This document shows, piece by piece, positions 5,097-28,776 of a stretch of 31,874 bases of DNA (positions are counted from its first letter, which is position 1; each line of letters begins with the position of its first letter). The stretch covers positions 1 to 31,874 of the IMG/VR virus record IMGVR_UViG_3300001533_001956; one strand, 5' to 3'. The notes under the pieces were generated by a model, which saw only the letters and a program-made list of their open reading frames with translations, searched no databases and had not been told where the DNA came from. The position numbers and the translations under genes were made by a program. The DNA is from a virus.

Positions 5097-5779
5097 CCAT
5101 CGACAGCCACGACATCATGATCGAGACCCAAGAGGACTATCCCGTGCCCACTGAGGACGAGTACCTTGAGGAAGTCCGCGAGTCCTGGAACTGGGACATC
5201 CTACGCACCGAGGCCGAGGACAACCTCCGCGAGACCTATAAGGAGGCGGCGGAGTACAACGAGGGCAACGAGGACTGGGTGGCCGAGTACGACGAGCACT
5301 GCATCGGATCGGTGTTCCTGGGCACCGTGTTCTCGCTCCTGCCCAGCGGCAAGTTCTATACCCTCTGGGCGAACAGCAACGTCAGCCCCTGTGACCACTG
5401 CGAGGGCACAGGGAAGCTGAACTTCGTCGTCAAGTGCGAGCACTGTGAGGGCAAGGGCCATACGCTGCTCTCCCAGGAGCAGTACGACTACAACCCCGAA
5501 CTATGGGACAAGAAGGGCTACAAGGTGGGCACCCCAATGCGCTGCCTGTTCTGTAACGGACGCAGATACGTTGAGAAAGAGTGCCCCTGGTGTGACGGCG
5601 AGGGCTCCGAGGAAGCCTACCGCGACCAGCTCTACTACGCCGCCTTGGACACCTTGGCCGAGGAGCAAGGGGGCTACATCTTTAGCGGCGAGGGCGACCC
5701 CTGTGACATCTTCTTCGGGATCGCCTACGACCAAGAGATCATAGACCGAGCCTGCGAAGAAGGCGAGACCGACGCCTAA
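5093..5779 (+). CDS. Protein with DnaJ-type Cys-rich zinc domain
   Basis: A 228-residue protein; ATG 5093 overlaps the previous stop (ATGA) behind GAGGAG. The middle carries four CxxCxG motifs in order: CDHCEGTG, CEHCEGKG, CLFCNGRR and CPWCDGEG. This is the pattern of the DnaJ Cys-rich domain, which binds two zinc ions and unfolded protein. There is no J domain (no HPD motif), so it is not a full DnaJ. The flanks are acidic. It may be a chaperone-like or protein-binding factor, or use the zinc fold for DNA. The third motif is imperfect. Confidence 0.8.
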   Translation: MTIDSHDIMIETQEDYPVPTEDEYLEEVRESWNWDILRTEAEDNLRETYKEAAEYNEGNEDWVAEYDEHCIGSVFLGTVFSLLPSGKFYTLWANSNVSPCDHCEGTGKLNFVVKCEHCEGKGHTLLSQEQYDYNPELWDKKGYKVGTPMRCLFCNGRRYVEKECPWCDGEGSEEAYRDQLYYAALDTLAEEQGGYIFSGEGDPCDIFFGIAYDQEIIDRACEEGETDA

Positions 5780-8311: not shown

Positions 8312-8340
8312 TTGACACCATCTAGTGGCCAGTGTATACT
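8312..8340 (+). promoter_or_regulatory. Sigma-70-type promoter
   Basis: TTGACA at 8312-8317, a 17-base spacer, then TATACT at 8335-8340, preceded by GTG. The -35 box is perfect and the -10 box differs by one base from TATAAT. It lies between the stop at 8300 and the start at 8356, so a short leader with GGAGAGAGG is expected. Confidence 0.85.
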
Positions 8341-13502: not shown

Positions 13503-13649
13503 ATGGAAACACGCATACCGACCTGGGTAGTTCTTCTTCTGCTCGTCCTCTTCTCCCTGTGGATATTGGCACAGGCGGAGGGGATGATGGCGGACCCCTA
13601 CGTCCCCGCTGTGCGCCCCGAGACCATACAGCGGGCCTTTGTCCCTTGA
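13503..13649 (+). CDS. 48-residue membrane or secreted peptide
   Basis: ATG 13503 lies behind AAAGGAGG. The protein is METRIP, then a hydrophobic helix (TWVVLLLLVLFSLWILAQAE), then a short polar tail. It is either a single-pass membrane protein or has an uncleaved signal. Its stop codon TGA (13647-13649) lies inside the -35 box of the next promoter. It is the first and possibly only gene of the unit headed by bipartite element copy 5. Confidence 0.75.
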   Translation: METRIPTWVVLLLLVLFSLWILAQAEGMMADPYVPAVRPETIQRAFVP

Positions 13650-13675
13650 CAAGTATATACTGTCTGGTGTATACT
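13646..13675 (+). promoter_or_regulatory. Sigma-70-type promoter
   Basis: TTGACA at 13646-13651, an 18-base spacer, and TATACT at 13670-13675 preceded by GGTG. The stop codon of the previous gene lies within the -35 box. Start of transcription is expected near 13682, just before the AAAGGAGG site of the gene at 13696. Confidence 0.8.
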
Positions 13676-16253: not shown

Positions 16254-16601
16254 ATGCCCATCTTTCGTGTAATTGCTGAGGAGGTTTGGATTCGTAGCTT
16301 CCTCGTGGAGGCCGAGGACGAGGACGCAGCGCTTCAACGTGTAGTATTTCACCACGACGAAGCGGGTGAGGACATTCAGGCGGAGGACCACTACATGAAG
16401 GGGTTTACCTACCCTCAAGGGTGGTCCGTGATGAACGTCGAGGCAGAGATGTTGGCGGCACAGGCGCTCCAGGCCGTGGCCATTCACGGTGCAGCGACAT
16501 GGAACACCCCAGAGGAGAGGCAGCAATCCCTGCACTCGTTAGAGGACGTTGCCATGGAAGTTGCACAAGCGCTCGCTCGCTTGAGTGAGGAGGCCGAGTG
16601 A
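16254..16601 (+). CDS. DpnD/PcfM-like N-terminus with helical tail
   Basis: A 115-residue protein; ATG 16254 lies behind GAAGGGAAG. Residues 1-30 (PIFRVIAEEVWIRSFLVEAE, DEDAALQRV) repeat the strand-strand-helix pattern of the gene at 13696, the DpnD/PcfM type. The second half is helical and Ala-rich. The stop overlaps the GTG start of the next gene (GTGA). Confidence 0.65.
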   Translation: MPIFRVIAEEVWIRSFLVEAEDEDAALQRVVFHHDEAGEDIQAEDHYMKGFTYPQGWSVMNVEAEMLAAQALQAVAIHGAATWNTPEERQQSLHSLEDVAMEVAQALARLSEEAE

Positions 16602-16843
16602 CCATCTTTCTCGTAATCCCTTATGGGGCTGTCGCGCTCAGCCTGTCCCACAATCCCTATCCCGTGTTTCGAGCACAGGCCAAGACCGCGCAGGAGGCGC
16701 TCAGCGCAGTGTTTGCGTACAAGCGAGAGTACGTAAAACAACCCGACTCCCCTGTGCCTCTCGGGGAGATCTTTACGGTGAACGGCAAGAAGGGCGTCTT
16801 GGTATTCGATTTGCATGAATTGCATCGGGAAGCTACTGCTTGA
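16598..16843 (+). CDS. Small protein of unknown function
   Basis: An 81-residue protein with a GTG start at 16598, which overlaps the upstream stop (GTGA) and is spaced correctly from GAGGAGG. The N-terminus is strand-rich (TIFLVIPYGAVALSLSHN) and may be a further member of the small beta family at 13696 and 16254. Its stop codon TGA (16841-16843) is part of the -35 box of the next promoter. Confidence 0.7.
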   Translation: MTIFLVIPYGAVALSLSHNPYPVFRAQAKTAQEALSAVFAYKREYVKQPDSPVPLGEIFTVNGKKGVLVFDLHELHREATA

Positions 16844-16868
16844 CAACATTCATCGAATGCTGTATAAT
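16840..16868 (+). promoter_or_regulatory. Perfect consensus sigma-70 promoter
   Basis: TTGACA at 16840-16845, exactly 17 bases, then TATAAT at 16863-16868 preceded by TG. This is the full consensus. Transcription should start near 16875, leaving about 17 bases of leader with GGGAGGG before ATG 16892. Such a strong promoter suggests early or abundant expression of the gene that follows. Confidence 0.92.
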
Positions 16869-16891
16869 AGTCAGTATGAAGGGAGGGCTAT

Positions 16892-17698
16892 ATGGGTAGG
16901 ACAACGATTGGAGCGCCGACACTCACTAAACTAAAGGAGCTTGCCACCAAGCTACACCTCCGACCGAATCCACTGCTAAGCTACTTCATCGTAGAGAACG
17001 TAAGTGCAGCGTCGGAGAGCACGGTGCCCACGATGGAGACGTATAGCGATATTCCCCTAGAGTATATCTTGTCTGTCACCATATCGAAGCGGGCCTCCAC
17101 CATCGTCAAAGACCTATACTCTCTCTATGGAAGCTCAAGATGCCGTGTGCATGCCATCACTAGCTTCCTCGCAGAGGATGCGTTAGCCACTTATGCTTAC
17201 ACACCAGAGCGTTTCCCAGGGGTGAAGCACCTGCCCCAGCAAGGTGTCCATAGCTATCGCAAGAACACTTCTGTAGGGATCGCCAAGGCGGTTTACGAGC
17301 GCCTAAAGTGGCAACAGGAACGTAGCGTCGCTGAGCAGCCCGAGGAGCGACCGTCCATCTCTGCCTTGGTCGAGGGGATCTTGCGCACAGTGCCCAGGCA
17401 GAGGCTCTTTGCGGATTTGGGAAACGCTCAGAAGGTACAGATAGCGCTGGGCAGTCTACCCATACGGGAATATGTGGCAGTAGTGCTCACGCCGGGGAGC
17501 TATGAGTTCATCTCCTTCCTGGCAGCGGAGACAGGAGCACCGAAGTCACGAATCCTCACCTACATCATTGCCGAGGAACTGCGCGCTGTGGAGGATACCC
17601 TCGTCGTGGACGGAGGCCTCCTCCCCGACGATATTCGGGAGAGATATACTGAACTCCTGGGGCAGCTCCTAGCAATCGGAGAAGAGGAGAACTACTGA
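16892..17698 (+). CDS. Tandem ribbon-helix-helix protein (four RHH-like units)
   Basis: A 268-residue protein with no single-domain match that I know. By pattern I see four strand-helix-helix units of the MetJ/Arc type at about residues 2-37, 59-101, 125-167 and 193-233. The clearest is the last: EYVAVVLTPGSYEFISFLAA then TGAPKSRILTYIIAEELRAV. RHH proteins bind DNA as dimers, with one strand per chain lying in the major groove, so four units in one chain could form two binding ribbons. A consensus sigma-70 promoter drives it. It may be a repressor, a partition protein or a DNA-coating protein. Units 1 and 3 are weak. Confidence 0.6.
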   Translation: MGRTTIGAPTLTKLKELATKLHLRPNPLLSYFIVENVSAASESTVPTMETYSDIPLEYILSVTISKRASTIVKDLYSLYGSSRCRVHAITSFLAEDALATYAYTPERFPGVKHLPQQGVHSYRKNTSVGIAKAVYERLKWQQERSVAEQPEERPSISALVEGILRTVPRQRLFADLGNAQKVQIALGSLPIREYVAVVLTPGSYEFISFLAAETGAPKSRILTYIIAEELRAVEDTLVVDGGLLPDDIRERYTELLGQLLAIGEEENY

Positions 17699-17982: not shown

Positions 17983-18300
17983 ATGTACGCTTTGGATCCT
18001 ATGTTCAAGATGTTGGCGGTGCGCACGAGGGTGCGCATCATTGAGTCCCTTGCGCGAACTGGACCAATGACCCATGCAGACTTGAGCGCGAGGATGGAGA
18101 AGCCGCTAGGCGTTTGGACCCATCTGCAGAAGATGGTCCACGCTGGGCTACTCCTTCGTGAGGACGTGGACGAGAGCAATGTGCGCTACCACTTGAACAA
18201 AGAGGCCTTTCGGGCGCTTGCCCAGTGGATGCTGGACATTGCTGAGGTAGCCGAAGGAAAGGAGGAAGTGCGCGAGGCAGTGCTAGAGGCGGCCACATGA
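17983..18300 (+). CDS. ArsR-like winged-helix regulator
   Basis: A 105-residue protein; ATG 17983 lies behind TAGGAGGGG. Residues 5-75 follow the ArsR winged-helix plan: FKMLAVRTRVRIIESLARTG (helices 1-2), MTHADLSARMEKPLGVWTHL (helix-turn-helix with the recognition helix), then LLLREDVDESNVRYHLN (wing). There is no Cys metal site, so it is not a metal sensor of the classic kind. It lies between the RHH gene and the recombination genes and could control either. Confidence 0.8.
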   Translation: MYALDPMFKMLAVRTRVRIIESLARTGPMTHADLSARMEKPLGVWTHLQKMVHAGLLLREDVDESNVRYHLNKEAFRALAQWMLDIAEVAEGKEEVREAVLEAAT

Positions 18301-18318: not shown

Positions 18319-19302
18319 ATGAAGACAACCATCACCGCACGCGACGTAGAGAACTACTTGCAATGCAGATTCCGCTGGCTCATGGAGTCCGTGTACCACA
18401 TGGTCCCCAAGGCGGGGAACAAGCACCTCATCTTGCACAAGGCCGTGCGCCGCGGATTGGATGCGTACTACCGAGAAGAGGACGCGGTCGCTGCTGCAAC
18501 CGCAGCCTGGGATCAAGAGATTGCGCGGATCCGCGCTCGCTTAGATGGCCCCATTCCAGAGGAGCTAGAAGACTATCGCTCACTTGCAATATCTATGGTT
18601 GAGAACTATCCTACATGGGCGGCGGAGAACGACAACTTTGAAGTGACCGAGGTCAGCCCCCTCCTCGACGTGTCCCTCCTTGGCAAGGGCAGGCGATGGA
18701 TCACCCTGTCGCTCCGTCCAGACCTACTCGTCCAAAGGCACGATGGTACTTTTTGGCTCGTCATACACAAGACGAGAACTAGTATGCCAACGCGGGATCA
18801 ACTAGTCATGGAAGACTGCATCTTGACGCTCTTGACTGCCCTTCGCCAACCGGGGGTCTCTACTGCGGTTGCGCAAACACAGGGGGTCATGGCCAACGTC
18901 CTCCGTAAGGCAGAGATCCGGTCCCCCCGTGTGCTCAAGAGCGGAGCCCTCTCTAAGGACAAGTCGCAGAATACGACACCGGCGCTGTATCGTGCAGCGC
19001 TGCGGGAGCTTGGACTACCCGAGGACGAGTACGCAGACATCTTGGAAGCGCTGGACCCCAACAAGTTCAACGCACGAGAGGAGTTTCGAGCCGCACCAAC
19101 CCTCACCGACTGGTATCAAACCTTCCTGGCCGCTGCTATCGACGATATGCTCCGCGCTCCACAAGAGGCGTCGTCCTGGAAGGCAGACAGCACCACTTGC
19201 TCCTATTGCCCCTATCTCGACGTGTGCAATGTGCGCGTCCATGGTGGGGCCTGGACAAGCCTCGTAACCGAGTCCTTTGTAGCCTTAGAGGCGGAGGTGT
19301 AG
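18319..19302 (+). CDS. Cas4/RecB-like PD-(D/E)XK nuclease with altered motif
   Basis: A 327-residue protein; ATG 18319 lies behind TAGGAGG. Four Cys (C16, C294, C297, C303) are placed like the iron-sulfur cluster ligands of Cas4 and AddB. The nuclease core shows RPDLLV with D135, but the next strand reads WLVIHK, so the usual Glu/Gln of E-x-K is Ile149, before Lys151. Activity may be lost or another acidic residue may substitute. It leads the recombination genes (ATPase, SSB). Proteins of this kind process DNA ends in phage recombination. The gap to the next gene is 3 bases. Confidence 0.8.
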   Translation: MKTTITARDVENYLQCRFRWLMESVYHMVPKAGNKHLILHKAVRRGLDAYYREEDAVAAATAAWDQEIARIRARLDGPIPEELEDYRSLAISMVENYPTWAAENDNFEVTEVSPLLDVSLLGKGRRWITLSLRPDLLVQRHDGTFWLVIHKTRTSMPTRDQLVMEDCILTLLTALRQPGVSTAVAQTQGVMANVLRKAEIRSPRVLKSGALSKDKSQNTTPALYRAALRELGLPEDEYADILEALDPNKFNAREEFRAAPTLTDWYQTFLAAAIDDMLRAPQEASSWKADSTTCSYCPYLDVCNVRVHGGAWTSLVTESFVALEAEV

Positions 19303-19305
19303 TTA

Positions 19306-20193
19306 ATGCCCATTCTCACTCCAGAGACCATGGTTAACGTACCCATACGGGCGCTCTTCTACGGATCCACAGGGGCAGGGAAGACGTACCTTTGCGGCAC
19401 CGCGGTGGACGTCCCTAGTATGCTTCCCTTACTACATGTGGACGTAGAATCGGGGTATCGAACCGTCCGTGACAAGTACCTTCCCTTAGTCCGCTCTGGA
19501 CAAGTCGATGTGCTGACCACCACGAGCGCTAAGGATGTCAGTGTCATCTTTGCCGCCCTGTGGGGACCGGACCGAGGGAAGTACCGCACGGTCGTCATCG
19601 ACAGCCTCACCGAGCTCTACGCCCTGCTCATGAACATCCACCTTACAGGAAAAGGAAGGGAGGAAACGAATACCCAACTACAGGACTATGGAGTCATTGC
19701 CGCACAGATGCTCAAGCTCTTGCGTAGGATGACTCGGGAGAGTACCTGTCACATTCTCTGCACGGCGGGAGAGGACACGGAGAAGGACGAGATCTCCGGT
19801 GCTTTGCGTATCGGCCCTGACATTACGGGGCAGATGAGCCGCCGAGCCCCACGCTACTTCGACATCGTCGGCTACTTGACTTCGGAGATCAAAGCACGCT
19901 CTGACGGAGTCGTGCGAGAGACAAAGCGGCTGCTCCAACTTCAGCCATACGGGAATGTTCAGGCAAAGGACCGCACCCCTGGATCTCCCCTCGGCGCACT
20001 TCTTGAAGATCCCACCATGGCGAAGCTGTACAAGGCTTCCTATGGACACCTAGATCCCCTAGACTTCTCTTCCCTCAAGAATGCAGAGTCTCTCGCACCA
20101 GAGGAAGAGGAAGCCTTGGTAGATGCGGAGGGGGCTGAGGAAGAACCATGGGAAGAAGACGAACTTTCGGACGTTCAACCAATCGAAGCGTAG
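19306..20193 (+). CDS. Sak4-like RecA-fold ATPase (AAA_24)
   Basis: A 295-residue protein; ATG 19306 lies behind GCGGAGG. Walker A is GSTGAGKT at residues 20-27 and Walker B is TVVIDS with D99. The layout (N-terminal P-loop, HVDVESG, then RIGPDITGQMSRRAPRYFD) matches phage AAA_24 ATPases, which include the Sak4 single-strand annealing proteins. The acidic C-terminal tail (about 35 residues) is of the kind that contacts partner proteins. With its neighbours (nuclease before, SSB-like protein after) it makes a likely phage recombination and repair set. Confidence 0.85.
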   Translation: MPILTPETMVNVPIRALFYGSTGAGKTYLCGTAVDVPSMLPLLHVDVESGYRTVRDKYLPLVRSGQVDVLTTTSAKDVSVIFAALWGPDRGKYRTVVIDSLTELYALLMNIHLTGKGREETNTQLQDYGVIAAQMLKLLRRMTRESTCHILCTAGEDTEKDEISGALRIGPDITGQMSRRAPRYFDIVGYLTSEIKARSDGVVRETKRLLQLQPYGNVQAKDRTPGSPLGALLEDPTMAKLYKASYGHLDPLDFSSLKNAESLAPEEEEALVDAEGAEEEPWEEDELSDVQPIEA

Positions 20194-20206
20194 AGGAGAA
20201 AACATC

Positions 20207-20677
20207 ATGGCAAAGATTAAAACAGATTTTGGTGCTGGCGTAGAGATCGCTCCTGTTCCTATGCCGATCGGCTCGTTCATCATTCGGATCGACAAGATCG
20301 AGGTCAAGCCGAGCAAGGCCTCCAACCTCCCCACGATGTACATCAATGGGGAGTGCGTAAGCCATGGCGAGGAAGGACACCGTGTCTTCTTCACCGTCTC
20401 ACTAAGTGACAAGGCGCAGTTCCGCTTGGGGCAGCTGCTCGTCTTCAGCAATCTGTATGAGGAGGACGAGCTTAAGGGCCAGTTCGACTTTGACACCGAC
20501 GACCTCATTGGTCAGGAGATTGGAGTCAACTTCACCCCGACGGTGGACAACGACGGCAACCCAACCACCGAGGCCAAGTCTTTCACCTATCCTGAAAAGT
20601 GTGGAGGGCCAACGGGGGAGGACTATGAGGCAGTCGCCACCGCGGCAGCCGTAGGCGGCCTGGAAGGCCTCTTGTAG
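20207..20677 (+). CDS. DUF669-like ssDNA-binding protein
   Basis: A 156-residue protein; ATG 20207 is fixed by AGAGGAG. It is strand-rich with FIIRIDKIEVKPSKASNLPT, GHRVFFTVSLSDKAQFRLGQ, then DLIGQEIGVNFTPTVDNDG, the order seen in phage DUF669 proteins, which replace SSB. Position directly after a Sak4-like ATPase supports this, since these genes often travel together. The C-terminus is acidic in part. A terminator follows, so its level may be set separately from that of the polymerase genes. Confidence 0.75.
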   Translation: MAKIKTDFGAGVEIAPVPMPIGSFIIRIDKIEVKPSKASNLPTMYINGECVSHGEEGHRVFFTVSLSDKAQFRLGQLLVFSNLYEEDELKGQFDFDTDDLIGQEIGVNFTPTVDNDGNPTTEAKSFTYPEKCGGPTGEDYEAVATAAAVGGLEGLL

Positions 20678-20713
20678 TTCATCCGGACCATAGCAACAGG
20701 CCGATCATGCTGG

Positions 20714-20743
20714 AGGCCACCCACCCTAGTTGGGTGGCCTTCT
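20714..20743 (+). terminator. Rho-independent terminator (weak T-run)
   Basis: AGGCCACCCA at 20714-20723 pairs with TGGGTGGCCT at 20731-20740, followed by TCTCC. It lies 37 bases after the stop at 20677 and before the primase-helicase gene. The poor T-run suggests partial termination with read-through. Confidence 0.7.
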
Positions 20744-20769
20744 CCATCTAATGGTTTAGGAGACGTAGC

Positions 20770-23274
20770 ATGGACTTGCTGCATGCTTTGTTCCAAACGC
20801 TGCGTCCGGATGAGCAAATCTATGTGTGGCGGAAATCGCCACACGAGCGCAGGCTCTTTGATAGCCCCCAAGAAGTTGAGGAATACGTCGAGGGGCTAGA
20901 TGACAAGGCCGACGTCTACTTCGGGGTTGCCCCGAGGATACGTGGGGCCTACGACACGGTTAGTCGCGTTACCGCCGTGTGGGCAGATCTAGACTTTTCG
21001 GCCTTTGGGGACTCTCAAGAGAAAGCTAAGGACGCACTCATGTTCTACCCCGTGGAGCCTAGCTTCGTTGTAGCTAGTGGGCATGGCTTGCACGCCTATT
21101 GGCTGCTCGAAGAAGGCATCCCTGGGGACGTAGCGCAACGCATCATGCGCGATCTCACAGCCGTTGTTGGAGCGGACCCGACCCACGACCCCCCGCACGT
21201 CCTCCGTGTTCCTGGGACAGTCAACGCGAAGCGTCCCGAGGCACCCTGTGCGGTCAAGGAGCTACTCAGTCAGAAGAACTTCGTGTACAACCCAGAGGAC
21301 TTGGAGCGCTTAGGGCGGCTGAGTAGCCGGGCTCTACACATCATCGCCACCGGATCGACGAAGGATTTTGCCTCCCGCAGTGAGCGGGACTGGTTTGTTG
21401 TCCGCGAACTGATCGCGCTGGGCATCGGCCAGAAGACGATCGAGGCTTCGATTCAGCAGAAAAAGTGGGGGAATCGCTATCGAGAGGATCCCCGCCTCCT
21501 GCGAGTAGACTTAGAAAAAGCGAAGAGCCCCTTCGCCTCGGCGGAGCTTCGTTTCATTGAGGCCCAAGACTGCCTCTTCTTCATTACGCAAAATGGAAAA
21601 CACCAAGTCTCTACCTTCACGTTCGAGCCGGAGCGCCTCCTAACAGATCCGACGGGGGGTGCAGAGGACGCGCTGCTCGGCACCGTGCGTGCGGCTGGGC
21701 AAGTGTGGAAAGAACGGATATTCCCGCGAAGCGCGTTCTCCTCCCAAGCCAAACTTCATGGCTACCTGCCCATGATGTGGTGGCAGTGGACGGGGAATGA
21801 CTACGAGACCCGCCAATACTTGATCTACTTGATGGCCCGCTTGCAGCAGTCTGGGGGAGGCCGGACCTTCGTGACCTCCACAATGGGGAGACACGAAGAC
21901 ATGTGGGTGTATCGCGAAGGAGCCATCACCACGGAGGGGATCGTACCTGCCGCTCAGGCTCCCTATATCTTTATGGCTCCCTCGAAGGGCCGCGGCTCTA
22001 AGAAAGACACATGGCCAGAGCTCTCCTATGAGCTCTTGGCTGAGGACGACTACCGCGCGCTTTGCATAGAGCTTGGCGAACACATCCCCAACACCAACAC
22101 CATCGGCGCTGTGCTCCCTATCTTAGGATGGTTCTGCGCAAACCCGCTCAAGCCGCTTTTTGGGGCAGCGGGGATCCGCTTTCCGCACCTAAATGTCTTT
22201 GGTACGATGGGCGCAGGGAAGACGAGCTCTTTACTCAAACTTTACATGCCCCTCCTCGGCATGACGGATCCCAAGACATGGACAACGCAGACGACGACGT
22301 TCGTCATGCGCTGTCTCCTGGCGGGGACAAATGCCCTCCCTGTGATCTTTGGCGAGTTCCGGGCGTCCACCTCAGAAGCGGCGCGTAACGACTTTGCACA
22401 TATTATTCGTCAGGCCTACGACACAGGGCTAGACGCTCGTGGACGGGCCGATCAAAGCACCAACGTGTACGCCCTAGATGCACCCATCATCATTGATGGC
22501 GAGGACGCGGTCAACGACGGAGCTCTTCGAGAGCGCTGCATCATTGTAAACCTACAGCCCGCAGACATCGCTGTAGGATCAGCGGCGTACACATCCTTCG
22601 AGCATCTTGCAGCGCTGCCTCTGCATCACTTTGCTGGCCACTACATCCAACGTACCCTACATGAAACAGCAGAAAGTGTCTATGAGCGTTGGGAACGATA
22701 TGTAGAGGAAACCTCGCGAGTCTTTGATGAAGGACTCCCCGACCGCGTCCGGAAGAACATCTCCGTAGTCTGCGTAGGGCTAGAGCTCTTTTGTGAGCAT
22801 ATGGAGGCGTGGAGCGCCCCGGCCCCAGAGTGGAAGTTAGCCGATCTCGGGAAGCAACTGCGTAATGCTTCAGTACGTCTCGCCACAGGGGTATCACGCA
22901 CGATGTTCGACGACTTCATTGAAGACCTCGTTGGCGTGGCGGCGAATCAAGGCGTGACCAGCACCCCCTTTATCAGCTATTACCAGGAGCGGGATAAGGT
23001 ATTGTGGGTACACCTAGCGACAGCGATCGCGTGGTGGGACAAGTCCATGCGCGCCCGTGGGCGCTCTGGCTTAGAAGTGATGGCCTTGCGGGCGCAGCTG
23101 CAGGAGCGTTGCGAGAATGGTGGGTACGCTCTTCCCGAACAGACGCTTAACACAGGGACAAACCAGAGATTGAGCTGTTTTGGGGTCTCATTACCCAAGT
23201 GTCAGGAGGTTGGCCTAGATGTTCCGGATGGACTAGCAAAGCACATCACGCTTGCAAGGAGGAATGAGCTATGA
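20770..23274 (+). CDS. Primase-helicase
   Basis: An 834-residue protein; ATG 20770 lies behind TAGGAGACG. The N-terminal 170 residues have primase signals of the RepB/AEP type: VWADLDF with D73 and D75, SGHGLHAYWLL at 103-113 and RVPGTVNAK at 146-154. The C-terminal part has a P-loop GTMGAGKT at 478-485, a Walker B-like VIFGEF with E529 and a likely arginine finger at LRERCIIVNL. Together these should prime and unwind DNA at the replication origin. It is coupled to the polymerase by ATGA. It resembles the DUF927-type helicases of phages and plasmids; the exact family needs a profile search. Confidence 0.85.
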   Translation: MDLLHALFQTLRPDEQIYVWRKSPHERRLFDSPQEVEEYVEGLDDKADVYFGVAPRIRGAYDTVSRVTAVWADLDFSAFGDSQEKAKDALMFYPVEPSFVVASGHGLHAYWLLEEGIPGDVAQRIMRDLTAVVGADPTHDPPHVLRVPGTVNAKRPEAPCAVKELLSQKNFVYNPEDLERLGRLSSRALHIIATGSTKDFASRSERDWFVVRELIALGIGQKTIEASIQQKKWGNRYREDPRLLRVDLEKAKSPFASAELRFIEAQDCLFFITQNGKHQVSTFTFEPERLLTDPTGGAEDALLGTVRAAGQVWKERIFPRSAFSSQAKLHGYLPMMWWQWTGNDYETRQYLIYLMARLQQSGGGRTFVTSTMGRHEDMWVYREGAITTEGIVPAAQAPYIFMAPSKGRGSKKDTWPELSYELLAEDDYRALCIELGEHIPNTNTIGAVLPILGWFCANPLKPLFGAAGIRFPHLNVFGTMGAGKTSSLLKLYMPLLGMTDPKTWTTQTTTFVMRCLLAGTNALPVIFGEFRASTSEAARNDFAHIIRQAYDTGLDARGRADQSTNVYALDAPIIIDGEDAVNDGALRERCIIVNLQPADIAVGSAAYTSFEHLAALPLHHFAGHYIQRTLHETAESVYERWERYVEETSRVFDEGLPDRVRKNISVVCVGLELFCEHMEAWSAPAPEWKLADLGKQLRNASVRLATGVSRTMFDDFIEDLVGVAANQGVTSTPFISYYQERDKVLWVHLATAIAWWDKSMRARGRSGLEVMALRAQLQERCENGGYALPEQTLNTGTNQRLSCFGVSLPKCQEVGLDVPDGLAKHITLARRNEL

Positions 23275-25622
23275 CCATCAAACGACCAGGAGCCCTTTGT
23301 GATGAATGCCCCCTGCAAGAGTGCCGAGGGCTCACAGGGAGGTTCGCCAAGGGAAGTTCTGCAGACAAGCCCGTGGACGTCGTCATCGTTGGGGAGTCCC
23401 CAGGGAGGCAGGAGATGATTCAGAAGGCCGTCTTTGTTGGTCCAAGTGGAAAGCTCCTGTCTAGGGTTGCTGGACCCAAGAAGCTAGGCAACATCTACTT
23501 GACCAACGCCGCCCTGTGCTACACGGAGAACGGCAAGGATAAGGAGCAGGCCGCTAAGGCATGCGCCCCACGCCTGTGGCGGGAACTGCTTAGTCTGTCT
23601 CCGCGGCTTGTTGTCTCCATGGGGAACATCCCCACCGAGAGCCTGCTCGGCCCAGGCCCCGGCATTACGACGCGGCGGGGAGTTGCGGAGGAGCGCAACG
23701 GGCTAACAATCCTCCCCACTGTGCACCCCGCCTATGTCTTGCGTAGCGGTAGCGCCCTGCCCGACTTTGATCAAGATTTTGCAAAGGCGGAAGCGTTTTT
23801 GGCCCAGGGACAGGTTGCCTTTCGTGTGGCTGAGGAGGACAGGGACATCTCCTATAGGGTCACGACGGACTACAAGGACGTCCTCCAGAAGGCCGCCTCC
23901 GCCCCCTTTGCGGTGTTGGACTTGGAGACATCTAGCTTGGACATCTGCACGGCCACGGTGCTCTGCATGGTGATCGCCCCCCAGGGGGATCCTCAAGTGT
24001 ACATCCTACCACAGACGGTCATGGAGGACTTGGGCTTCCGCGACGCTTTACGCAACTGTCCTGCACGGTGGAGTGGCCACAACGCCAAGTTCGATCGCAA
24101 TGTGTTAGCGAAGCGTTGGGGCATTTCGCTACGCTTCACTCATGACTCCCTCTTGGGGCACTACATGCTGGACGAGCGCAAGGGCACGCACGGGCTGAAG
24201 GATATCTCCCGCTCCCTGTGGAACGCGCCCGACTGGGAAGCGCCCATCCAGGAGGCACTGAAGGAGCGGAAGTCGAAGAGCTACGCTGACGTGCCCCCGG
24301 CCATGCTGCACAAGTACGCCGCACTCGACGGTCACTATCAACGGAAGCTGACTGAGCATGTCATCGCGGAGCTTGAGAAGCTACCCAAGCGATGGAGCGT
24401 CTACGCAGACCTACTAATTCCTGCCATGCACGCCTTGTCCAATGCAGAAGTAAAGGGCGTACTGCTCGACTTACCGCTGTTACACGCCTATCAACAAACG
24501 TATGAGAAGAAGATCCTTCGGGTATTGTCCCAGATTCATGAGATTATTGGACGTCCCTTCGACCCAACACAGCCCAAGGCTACCTTCAACGCGGGCTCTC
24601 CAGCCCAGGTCGCAGCTGTGATGTTTGACGAGCTGGGTCTTCCGCAGCTGAATGGACGCTCGACAAACGCCACCACCGTGCTCAAGCGGTATGAGAATCC
24701 CCACCCGTTTGTCACAGCCATCTTAGAGTTCCGAGAACTCAACACGATGATCACGCGCTACCTCAATGGGCTGGAGAGGTCGGTCAGTCCCTTTGGTACA
24801 GTGCACACCAACTTCAACCTGCAAGGCACGACCACAGGGAGGTTGTCCTCTAGCGATCCCAATCTCCAGAATCAGCCGCGCAAGAATGCGGACATCAAGA
24901 AGCTCTTCGCACCAGATCCGGGGAACTGGTGGATCGAGGCGGATTACTCCCAGATTGAGTTACGGGTCATTGCGTGGCTGTCCCAGGATCCTTGGCTGCT
25001 GCAGTGCTATCGAGATGGTAGAGATCTGCATGGAGAGATGGCCGCGGAGGTCTACGGCCCCGACTATGTTAAAGAGCAGCGCAGCTTGGCCAAAGGCATG
25101 AACTTTGGACTGGCCTATGGGCGTACAATCTTTGGCATCATGCAGGATGGGGACATCAACATATCGCTGGAGGAAGCTGAGCGCATCAAGGAAGTGTTCT
25201 TCGCCCGCATGCCCGGAGTCGTCCGCTGGGTAGCAGAGACCAAGGCGTTTGTGCTCAAGAACCACTACATCGAGACCCCCCTGGGGCGCGTTCGTAACTT
25301 CCCGGAGATCGCAATCGCTCGTTCTGCTGGGGATCGTGAACGGATCTTTCGAGAAGCGGTGAACAACAATCCTCAGAGTGTGGCCAGTGACGTCACGCTT
25401 CGGGCATTCACAAAGCTAGACGCGCTTGGGTATGACATGCGCATCACCGTGCACGATAGCGTCGTCGCTCAAGCCCCACAGGGGGATGTGAAGGACGTCG
25501 CCCGAGAGATGTGCCGGATCATGGAGGAGAGCGCCACGGAGCTGCTGGGGGACGATCTTCCCTTTCCCGCGGACGCTGGGGTAGGGCCTACATGGGGAGA
25601 CATCAAGGAGATAGACGTATGA
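23271..25622 (+). CDS. Uracil-DNA glycosylase / 3'-5' exonuclease / DNA polymerase A fusion
   Basis: A 783-residue protein that overlaps the previous stop (ATGA). Residues 1-180 are a family 4-like uracil-DNA glycosylase: C10, C13, C83 and C98 fit an iron-sulfur cluster, with GESPG at 41-45 and HPA at 152-154. Residues 210-365 are a proofreading exonuclease: D217-x-E219, GHNAKFD with D275, and Y349-x3-D353. The rest is family A polymerase: DYSQIELR (D558), RSLAKGMNFGLAYG (R604, K608, F612) and VHDS (D729). F612 matches Phe762 of E. coli Pol I. It has no 5' nuclease. It is the likely replicative polymerase, and its glycosylase could remove uracil at the fork. Confidence 0.95.
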   Translation: MTIKRPGALCDECPLQECRGLTGRFAKGSSADKPVDVVIVGESPGRQEMIQKAVFVGPSGKLLSRVAGPKKLGNIYLTNAALCYTENGKDKEQAAKACAPRLWRELLSLSPRLVVSMGNIPTESLLGPGPGITTRRGVAEERNGLTILPTVHPAYVLRSGSALPDFDQDFAKAEAFLAQGQVAFRVAEEDRDISYRVTTDYKDVLQKAASAPFAVLDLETSSLDICTATVLCMVIAPQGDPQVYILPQTVMEDLGFRDALRNCPARWSGHNAKFDRNVLAKRWGISLRFTHDSLLGHYMLDERKGTHGLKDISRSLWNAPDWEAPIQEALKERKSKSYADVPPAMLHKYAALDGHYQRKLTEHVIAELEKLPKRWSVYADLLIPAMHALSNAEVKGVLLDLPLLHAYQQTYEKKILRVLSQIHEIIGRPFDPTQPKATFNAGSPAQVAAVMFDELGLPQLNGRSTNATTVLKRYENPHPFVTAILEFRELNTMITRYLNGLERSVSPFGTVHTNFNLQGTTTGRLSSSDPNLQNQPRKNADIKKLFAPDPGNWWIEADYSQIELRVIAWLSQDPWLLQCYRDGRDLHGEMAAEVYGPDYVKEQRSLAKGMNFGLAYGRTIFGIMQDGDINISLEEAERIKEVFFARMPGVVRWVAETKAFVLKNHYIETPLGRVRNFPEIAIARSAGDRERIFREAVNNNPQSVASDVTLRAFTKLDALGYDMRITVHDSVVAQAPQGDVKDVAREMCRIMEESATELLGDDLPFPADAGVGPTWGDIKEIDV

Positions 25623-26050
25623 GCGGGACCGTCGTAGTCGTCGTGGATCCGGGGGAGTCCACTGGGGTCATCGTGGCTTGCCTCGAAGAAAAGACTGCCC
25701 TCCCCACTATCATAGAAGCTACGACCATTCCATTGTGGCGAGGGCTGCAGGAGCTCATCGCAAAGTATCAGCCTGCGTGCATCGTCGCGGAGGAGTTTAG
25801 GCTCCGCGCTGCACAGGCAAAAGCGCAAGCAGGCTCGTACATGCCCTCCTCCCAAGTCCTGGGTGTGCTGACGTTTCTTGCTGAGCATGCGGATATCCCC
25901 CTGGTGGAGCAGTCTGCCTCCTTTGGCTTTCAGCGAGGGAGGGTCCGCAGCGATGAGGAAAAAGCACTATTTGACGCACTAGGTACAGTGCACGAACAGG
26001 CGGCCTTTCACCACTTACTGGCCTATGTTCGGGCTCAAGGAGGGAAGTGA
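25619..26050 (+). CDS. RuvC-like Holliday-junction resolvase
   Basis: A 143-residue protein; ATG 25619 overlaps the polymerase stop (ATGA). It has the RNase H-like fold signals VVVVVDPGESTGVIV (first Asp), CIVAEEFRL (Glu) and a C-terminal DALGTVHEQAAFHHLLAY (Asp and His), the pattern of RuvC-type resolvases. It would cut four-way junctions made during recombination or replication. The length fits phage RuvC-like proteins. An upstream in-frame start at 25511 is rejected because it lies inside the polymerase gene. Confidence 0.8.
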   Translation: MSGTVVVVVDPGESTGVIVACLEEKTALPTIIEATTIPLWRGLQELIAKYQPACIVAEEFRLRAAQAKAQAGSYMPSSQVLGVLTFLAEHADIPLVEQSASFGFQRGRVRSDEEKALFDALGTVHEQAAFHHLLAYVRAQGGK

Positions 26051-28776
26051 TGCTCACGTACTTGCCTGCTCGGGGACGCTACACCGCAAAGATTTCGGGA
26101 TCGGGGATAGACGGCAAGAAGGCGGCGGTTGCCTGCAAGGACATTCCCGGCGTGACCTTCAGGGACGGCTCGGTGAAGATCCCCGCAGACCCCAGGTTGT
26201 TGGAGATGGTTGCCCACCACTGGGACAACAACATCCTCATCTCAAAGGAACTCCAGGCGTGGTACAAGCGGGAGACGGACGCGGAGCGCAAGCTCGTCGA
26301 GCTCCTCGCCCGTGAAGACGCTTCGTTAGAGCATCCAAACTCCAATATTCTACATCCCTATCAGCGAGTTGGAGTGAACTACTTGGTTAACGCTGGTGGT
26401 GGGTTGTTATGTGACGACATGGGCTTAGGGAAGCAACAGCCTGTAGACACCAGTGTATTAACGCCAAGTGGATGGCGAGTCTTAGGAGGATTACAGCTAG
26501 GAGATGCTGTCATCGGATCAGACGGAAAGCCAACCCTTGTCACTGGAATCTATCCACAGGGTGTAAAGCCTTCCTTTCGGGTTTACATGTCCGATGGCTC
26601 CAGTGTTGAGGCTGGGCCAGAACATCTTTGGTTGGTCTCTTACCGTCGCGGGGGAAGGAAGTGGCAAGAGCTTGAGCTAACAACGGAGCAACTAGCAAAC
26701 CGCCCTGTCATAACTCAACAGTGGTCTAGGGCCAATGATTTCGAGTCCACACTCGACTTGAGTAAGACGAAACTTTACCTGCCTATGCTCTCTGGCATAC
26801 CCGACTTGGGCAGCAATGAACCACGGCCCATTGATCCCTATACGTTGGGCGCACTCTTGGCGAATGGATGCTTGCATTGTGGAACGCCAACATTGACTGT
26901 GAATACGGCAGACGCTCAGGAGGTGATAGCCTATGTCTCCCAGAAAGAGGAGCTTGGGGCCGTCCACGCCTATGGGCAAGCGACCCATATTAATATCCTG
27001 TCCATGACGGAGCGTATACGATCCCTCAACCTCGACGTGAGCAGCCGAGAGAAGTTCATTCCTCGGGCATACTTCAACGCCTCGGGGGCGCAACGGAAGG
27101 ATCTTTTACATGGTCTTATGGACGGGGACGGCAGCATCTCTAAAACGGGGAACCGTGTAACCTATCATAGCTGCTGCCAACAGTTGGCTAGAGACGTTCA
27201 AGAATTGGTAGAAAGCCTGGGTGGCATAGCCAGCATTAAAGAGTACAGCCGCAAGGAAAAGCCGACAGAATATCACGTTAGGATTCGTCTTTCCTTCAAT
27301 CCCTTTCGCATGCACCGCAAGGGGGATCGGTACAAGCCAGGACGGCTCGCCGCACCCTGCCGAACAATTCAGAGGGTTGAATACGTTCGGGAAGTGGAGT
27401 CGGTATGTATTGCCGTTGATGCCCCAGATCACCTATACGTCACTGAACACTGCATTCTTACGCACAACACTGCCCAGTCTATTATATCTGTTGACCTGTC
27501 TAGGGACAATGATCGTGTTCTTGTAATATGCCCCAATGCTGTGAAGCACCAGTGGCGGGAGGAGATTGAGAAATGGTCGTGCCTCAATCACCCCGTACAT
27601 ACGCTGGAATGGGCTACCCGAGAGGCGTGCATGCAATCCTTTCAGGAGCAGGGTGGCTGGGTGATCGCAAACTACTACGCCCTGCAGCGCTTCTGGGTGG
27701 GCAAGGAGGAGTACAAGACCGGCTTCGACGTGGGCACCTGGGACTGGGTCATCATCGACGAGGGGCACAGGCTGAAGAATCGCAAGACGCGCAGCTTCCA
27801 CGCAGCCTCGCTGCTCTCCTTCGCGCACTTGGCCATCCTCACCGGCACGCCCATGGGCAATGACCCCAGCGAGATGTGGGCTTTGCTCCACCTGCTCGAC
27901 CCGAAGAAGTACAGCTCCTACTGGCGCTTCTTCGAGATGTACGTGGAGTACATGGAGGATCATATCTTTGGGACGCGCACGATCTTGGGGACGAAGAATC
28001 CAAAGCTGCTGCGCACCGATCTCGCTCCGCGAATGGTACAGCGCCGTAAGGAGGACGTTCTCCCGCAGCTCCCTCGAAAGCAGTACCAGACACTTCGCCT
28101 AGACATGGACAAGGCCCAGCGCAAATACTATGTACAGATGCTAACCGAGAGTCGTCTCGCCCTGGAGAATGGGGAGGAGCTGGAAGCATGGTCGGCCCTA
28201 GCCGTCCTCGTGCGCCTGCGGCAGATCCTCAGCACCCCAGCTAACTTTGATCTGCCCGACGTCTCCACAAAGCTAGACGCGGCTATGGAGCTAATTACCT
28301 CCACGTCGCGGAGGGTGGTTGTGTACAGCATCTACCGCAAGACCGTCTTCTCCCTGTGCGCCCGTCTGGACAAAGAGAGCATCCCCAACGTGCGCATCAT
28401 TGGAGGCATGTCAGGAGAGGAACGGCACGAGGCACAGCGGCGAGTCAATGCCGCTGAGGCCCAAGTGCTGGTCGCTACGATCCGGGCAGGAGGCACAGGG
28501 CTGAACTTGCAGGGGGCCTCAACGGCGATCTTTGTCGATGAGGAGTGGAATCCTTTGGAGCAGCGGCAGGCGGAGGATCGTCTACACCGCCTTGGTCAGA
28601 CAGAGACGGTGCACATTATCCGCCTGTGTTGCCCAGGAACAGTAGACGACTTGGTGATGGAGATCTTACTGCGCAAGAAAAAGATGCACGATGCTGTCTT
28701 CGCCGAGGCCCTTCAACGGGAGTTTGATCGCTTTCTTGTTACTTCCCCAACCATCTCGGACTTACTGTCAGGATGA
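26050..28776 (+). CDS. SNF2-family helicase interrupted by an intein
   Basis: A 908-residue precursor; ATG 26050 overlaps the upstream stop (TGATG) and fits AAGGAGGG better than GTG 26047. After splicing, about 563 residues remain. Motif I is DDMGLGK-T, with Lys128 before and Thr474 after the intein. DEGH at 570-573 is motif II, LTGTPMGN motif III, and ATIRAGGTGLNLQ and QAEDRLHRLGQ motifs V and VI. Such enzymes move along DNA or remodel protein-DNA complexes. The intein splits the ATP site, so no ATPase exists until splicing. The 3' end overlaps the convergent gene by 38 bases. Confidence 0.93.
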   Translation: MLTYLPARGRYTAKISGSGIDGKKAAVACKDIPGVTFRDGSVKIPADPRLLEMVAHHWDNNILISKELQAWYKRETDAERKLVELLAREDASLEHPNSNILHPYQRVGVNYLVNAGGGLLCDDMGLGKQQPVDTSVLTPSGWRVLGGLQLGDAVIGSDGKPTLVTGIYPQGVKPSFRVYMSDGSSVEAGPEHLWLVSYRRGGRKWQELELTTEQLANRPVITQQWSRANDFESTLDLSKTKLYLPMLSGIPDLGSNEPRPIDPYTLGALLANGCLHCGTPTLTVNTADAQEVIAYVSQKEELGAVHAYGQATHINILSMTERIRSLNLDVSSREKFIPRAYFNASGAQRKDLLHGLMDGDGSISKTGNRVTYHSCCQQLARDVQELVESLGGIASIKEYSRKEKPTEYHVRIRLSFNPFRMHRKGDRYKPGRLAAPCRTIQRVEYVREVESVCIAVDAPDHLYVTEHCILTHNTAQSIISVDLSRDNDRVLVICPNAVKHQWREEIEKWSCLNHPVHTLEWATREACMQSFQEQGGWVIANYYALQRFWVGKEEYKTGFDVGTWDWVIIDEGHRLKNRKTRSFHAASLLSFAHLAILTGTPMGNDPSEMWALLHLLDPKKYSSYWRFFEMYVEYMEDHIFGTRTILGTKNPKLLRTDLAPRMVQRRKEDVLPQLPRKQYQTLRLDMDKAQRKYYVQMLTESRLALENGEELEAWSALAVLVRLRQILSTPANFDLPDVSTKLDAAMELITSTSRRVVVYSIYRKTVFSLCARLDKESIPNVRIIGGMSGEERHEAQRRVNAAEAQVLVATIRAGGTGLNLQGASTAIFVDEEWNPLEQRQAEDRLHRLGQTETVHIIRLCCPGTVDDLVMEILLRKKKMHDAVFAEALQREFDRFLVTSPTISDLLSG
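26434..27468 (+). mobile_element. Class 3 intein with LAGLIDADG endonuclease in SNF2 P-loop
   Basis: A 345-residue intein (precursor residues 129-473). It begins QQPVDTSVLTPSGWRVLGGL, so Gln and not Cys/Ser is residue 1, and ends CILTHN before the +1 residue Thr. It has the class 3 WCT triplet: Trp in PEHLWLV, Cys in VCIAVDAPDHLY and Thr in LTHN. The first endonuclease motif is LGALLANGC, with Asn where Asp/Glu is expected; the second (LLHGLMDGDG) is intact. The DNA looks more AT-rich than its flanks. The Deinococcus radiodurans Snf2 protein carries a known class 3 intein; whether at the same site is from memory. Confidence 0.92.

Follow-up and report, generated by a model that had tools for sequence, protein, structure and literature searches.

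Ribbon-helix-helix (RHH) regulators are a standard model of how small proteins gain specificity by assembling on DNA, as dimers and then as dimers of dimers. The RHH units act in pairs, joined by an antiparallel ribbon of two strands whose residues read specific DNA sequence in the major groove. Arc, Mnt and CopG have one unit per chain, and their tetramers, in which a pair of dimers sits on neighbouring parts of the operator, are non-covalent.

Single chains with two RHH units are also known. These include F TraY (PMC12117103), DndE (PMC10853773), AvtR (PMC5569661), RspWYL1 (PMC6547453) and the knotted protein 2efv (PMC2848546). In TraY and DndE the RHH is duplicated within the polypeptide, which takes the place of a homodimer, and a C-terminal helical extension is present (PMC12117103, PMC10853773). 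RspWYL1 carries in its N-terminal domain a pair of diverged RHH motifs on a single chain, related by pseudo-2-fold symmetry and interspersed with additional helices (PMC6547453). AvtR, from Acidianus filamentous virus 6 (PDB 4hv0), is virus-encoded; its two motifs form a monomeric pseudo-dimer, and the protein represses its own gene (PMC5569661). The first-pass annotation of the DNA examined here called a single-chain tetra-RHH unusual. Because two-RHH chains are known, single-chain RHH is less unusual than was stated there. No example of the four-unit form was found in the literature searched, which lay mostly outside the subscription journals.

Here we examine a putative four-unit RHH protein of a virus. 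The window, meaning the whole stretch of DNA analysed, is the 31,874-base virus record IMGVR_UViG_3300001533_001956. It is compared with a 22-kb locus (L003), part of the 72.5-kb viral contig IMGVR_UViG_3300005613_000045, which was reached by following the primase. The features of the gene and its surroundings in the window are as follows.

16840..16868, plus strand: exact sigma-70 promoter TTGACA-N17-TATAAT, the -35 overlapping the stop codon of the preceding ORF
16847..16859, no strand assigned: inverted repeat CATTC-ATC-GAATG in the promoter spacer, a candidate operator not above chance
16892..17698, plus strand: ORF for the putative four-unit RHH DNA-binding regulator, 268 aa, with a homologue in L003
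17698..17973, plus strand: next gene, a small protein with a hydrophobic N-terminus, conserved at the same position in L003 (E 2e-4)
17983..18300, plus strand: ArsR-type winged-helix protein, conserved in L003 (E 1e-17); a second relative locus (L002) also opens with a winged-helix ORF here
18319..23274, plus strand: replication genes for a PDDEXK nuclease, Sak4/AAA_24, an SSB-like protein (so labelled from position and appearance alone) and a primase-helicase, in the same order in L003 and L002

The promoter consists of a -35 hexamer at 16840-16845, a 17-nt spacer and a -10 hexamer at 16863-16868. It is the sole exact TTGACA/TATAAT pair in the window, where 0.004 would be expected (dinucleotide model, spacers 15-19, both strands), which bears out the promoter proposed in the first-pass annotation. 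We infer strong expression from it. ORF 16598-16843 ends in a TGA stop that overlaps the -35 hexamer. The -10 hexamer lies 23 bases from the RHH coding start, an ATG at 16892 preceded by GGGAGGG. The palindrome in the spacer, CATTCATCGAATG, occurs nowhere else in the window, and arms of this length could arise by chance; it was set aside as an operator. A seven-codon ATG mini-ORF at 16876-16899, possibly there by chance, opens close to where transcription is expected to begin and runs into the RHH start codon.

By sequence comparison, ORF 16892-17698 is a genuine gene, conserved within a rare phage lineage, because L003 has both a homologue and matching downstream genes. The homologue is 275 aa long and 29% identical to the window protein over 270 aa (E 3e-29), with all four segments kept. 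It is followed, as in the window, by genes for a small protein, a winged-helix protein, a nuclease, an AAA protein, an SSB-like protein and a primase. L002 begins at the winged-helix gene, so the gene upstream of it is not seen there. Direct homologue searches with the RHH protein found no relative in viral contigs, phage records or plasmid records. Scans of viral sequences through the primase and polymerase added L002 and L003 only, and scans of genome contigs through the primase gave no relative. An exact family motif scan found only these two other records. The RHH protein family stands at two known sequences, the window protein and that of L003.

The window protein gave no family match above the curated cut-off in Pfam, PHROGs or NCBIfam. 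The putative units were therefore delimited by eye, and each two-sequence alignment (window and L003) was compared by hhalign with an RHH reference. The reference comprised 10 RHH proteins, each confirmed with Pfam (CopG, Arc, NikR, ParD, FitA, CcdA, RelB, Mnt, Omega and ParG types). Controls were 56 blocks from neighbouring conserved proteins and 150 column shuffles. The segments are listed below.

16892..17002, plus strand: RHH unit 1, residues 1-37, compared by hhalign with RHH and with unit 4
17060..17185, plus strand: RHH unit 2, residues 57-98, linked to RHH through unit 4 only
17261..17392, plus strand: RHH unit 3, residues 124-167, weak, with a longer turn between the helices
17468..17584, plus strand: RHH unit 4, residues 193-231, the most canonical unit
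17618..17686, plus strand: conserved C-terminal helix (LLPxxxRER...) beyond the RHH units, kept in L003 and helical in both structure models

Unit 4 is clearly similar to RHH, with the strand-helix-helix profile. It scores 21.8 against the reference (best control 12.9, best shuffle 14.2), with a P of 1.5e-4 that, like the P-values below, is a ranking more than an exact probability because the profiles are shallow, the comparisons single and the unit limits set by eye. It aligns with CopG over the strand, helix A, the turn and helix B. Its best matches, from several independent family libraries, are weak and mostly of RHH type: RHH_5, RelB-like antitoxin, YlcI/YnfO and PRK11675, the last two of which we take to be RHH families.

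Units 1 to 3 are weaker, with some support for each. Unit 1 scores 13.3 against RHH (P 0.016; none of the 56 controls and 3 of the 150 shuffles as good) and 18.5 against unit 4 (P 0.0013, in register), a score that no control or shuffle reaches. Its RHH nature is moderately supported. Unit 2 also resembles unit 4 in register (score 18.3-19.4, P about 1e-3; 0/56 controls, 0/150 shuffles), and its direct comparison with the RHH reference is not significant (score 8.0, P 0.3). Unit 3 scores 12.6 against RHH in full register (P 0.015-0.03), beaten by 3 of the 56 controls and 8 of the 150 shuffles; against unit 4 it has no hhalign score beyond controls and shuffles. In a sliding hhalign scan of 46 columns against RHH, units 1, 3 and 4 alone score above the best control, and at each of them the strand-to-helix register is correct. 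An eight-unit alignment was rejected as evidence, being too divergent. Three queries against PDB sequences (the pair of full-length proteins, the alignment of eight units and the pair of unit 4) returned chance matches only.

An RHH fold for the window protein is thus likely, and it is plausible that all four units are RHH. The four strand-helix-helix units of the first-pass annotation are borne out clearly for unit 4 and moderately for unit 1. Unit 2 enters through unit 4 alone, and unit 3 is weak.

The AlphaFold2 models are of low confidence, with a pLDDT of 42.7 for the window protein alone and 41.5 for the L003 protein when the window protein was supplied as the second row. Both are mostly helical and show helix pairs in units, a secondary structure compatible with the four-unit reading and better resolved in the L003 protein, which has one pair per unit (10-25/29-42, 70-81/86-104, 128-149/153-169 and 207-218/222-244, plus the C-terminal helix). 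No beta ribbon is built in either model at this pLDDT of 41-43, and a structure search with the low-confidence model (pLDDT 41-43) listed helical bundles and no RHH, an uninformative result at this confidence. Such models would also suit a protein whose only true RHH is unit 4, perhaps joined by unit 1; the remainder would be scaffold helices or would serve oligomerisation, and dimers would form through unit 4 as in ordinary RHH regulators. The RHH assignment is clear for unit 4 only, unit 2 failing against the RHH profile and unit 3 being weak, and this fits the arrangement as well. However, the in-register resemblance of units 1 and 2 to unit 4 exceeds every control, and unit 3 aligns over the full RHH length with a valine/isoleucine strand pattern kept in both the window and L003 proteins. 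We consider this arrangement rather unlikely, though a serious competitor.

The four-unit reading can be set beside the described systems. Like AvtR, the protein is virus-encoded and would have more than one RHH motif per chain. AvtR differs in having two units in about 106 aa and in coming from an archaeal virus, whereas the window protein has four putative units in 268 aa; no sequence match between the two was found. TraY and DndE likewise have two units, and their roles are in conjugation and DNA modification. RspWYL1 is fused to a WYL domain and acts on Cas13d.

According to the four-unit reading, the product of ORF 16892-17698 would be a DNA-binding regulator with four RHH units in one chain. 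Since RHH units act in pairs, the chain would most likely fold as two internal pseudo-dimers, units 1+2 and units 3+4. It would be a covalent version of the dimer of dimers into which repressors of the Arc and CopG types assemble on DNA, imitating in one chain their state of two dimers side by side. The gene heads the replication gene block, and the consensus promoter at the head of that block would give early expression. The protein would most likely bind beside or over its own promoter and so limit its own operon. Intra-chain pairing, DNA binding and autoregulation are what we infer, and the protein probably controls the replication genes of the phage itself.

L003 offers a lead to the DNA target. 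Its promoter at 5640-5668, which lies one gene ahead of the RHH gene, has a palindrome, GAATAGT-TGT-ACTATTC, across the -10, and ATAGTTTTAGTAT (of the ATAGT-N3-AGTAT type) occupies the same place in the other strong early promoter of L003, at 3173. As a lead to the protein's own target this is suggestive at best, because the window promoter carries only a shortened form of the element, ATAGTCAGTAT.

The exact promoter upstream, the syntenic four-segment homologue, the RHH score of unit 4 and the register of the sliding scan argue for this reading. So do the match of units 1 and 2 to unit 4, the helix pairs in the models and the weak RHH-type library matches of unit 4. The L003 palindromes at early promoters and the self-repression of AvtR also count in its favour. 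On the other side are the lack of a match above curated cut-offs, a unit 2 without direct RHH signal, a unit 3 beaten by controls, the missing ribbon at pLDDT 41-43, a family of two sequences only and a window spacer palindrome not above chance. On balance, a four-RHH single-chain phage regulator, built of two pseudo-dimers and autoregulating an early replication operon, is about as probable as its negation. The fuller proposal is more tentative and falls a little short of that balance. It holds that this is a natural single-chain tetra-RHH, with two covalent pseudo-dimers and four non-identical ribbons, which serves as a lineage-specific regulator of phage replication genes and reads an asymmetric two-site operator without assembly on DNA. 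If true, four diverged units in one chain would be the assembly of dimers of dimers fused in one gene, and each ribbon would be free to read a different sequence. The one- and two-unit series of CopG, TraY and AvtR would be extended, and cooperativity could be compared directly with covalent linkage by experiment.

The first-pass annotation had suggested two other target regions, 421-554 and 1573-2110, and neither is supported. The stretch 1500-2110, possibly a replication origin, is AT-rich and non-coding; a 23-nt repeat (RTAAAAACTTNCCRGTYNGTTAC-like) occurs in it three times, together with an inverted repeat of 24 nt. The protein might act there as an auxiliary DNA-bending replication protein, like TraY at oriT, on the phage origin rather than in transcription. 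The RHH gene does head the replication block, the AT-rich 1573-2110 with its threefold repeat would suit such a role, and TraY is a single-chain RHH protein that binds a series of sites (PMC12117103). Yet nothing links the protein to 1573-2110, and the promoter-proximal palindrome of L003 better suits a repressor. We regard a bending role as improbable.

At 421-556 there are seven GAAC-N4-GTTC palindromes (422-554) within 135 bp, several abutting at 13-bp spacing, and an eighth, at 1551, lies in 1550-1564. A perfect hairpin (372-403) immediately precedes the array, and an ORF at 653 follows it. Seven abutting or closely spaced copies are unusual for LexA. GAAC-N4-GTTC is the B. subtilis-type LexA box consensus (PMC4234289), and with 8 copies of this SOS box in the window, 421-556 looks like an SOS/LexA-controlled phage region. 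The relative has no GAAC-N4-GTTC in the 22-kb L003 locus and one in the whole 72.5-kb contig. Because L003 retains the RHH protein without the array, the protein probably does not read the boxes at 421-554, and host LexA would be their simpler reader. A centromere-binding protein of partition or segregation, ParG/Omega-like and reading site arrays such as 421-554, is very improbable: ParG and Omega are RHH proteins and the window has a tandem palindrome array, but no ParA-type ATPase was noticed in a non-exhaustive look at the ORFs, and the array, a match to the LexA box, is missing in L003, which keeps the RHH protein.

Other promoters show further motifs. The next best forward promoter-like sites of the window, 8312 and 13646, are one base off each. 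These near-consensus promoters (8312-8340 and 13646-13675) have AGTATATACT or AGTGTATACT within their spacer or -10, possibly a shared phage regulatory element. As a shared phage operator AGTATATACT was rejected, its 10 matches in the window against 4.7 expected being partly circular because it contains the TATACT of the -10 box. At L003:3173-3213 and L003:5640-5681, an ATAGT-N3-AsTAT element stands at equal offset from the -10 in both strong early promoters.

DNA polymerase A and the SNF2 helicase lie further along the replication block of the window. The polymerase (23271-25622) has a fused N-terminal domain of uracil-DNA-glycosylase type. The SNF2-type helicase (26047-28776) is split by an insert that resembles an intein and contains a domain of the LAGLIDADG homing endonuclease type.
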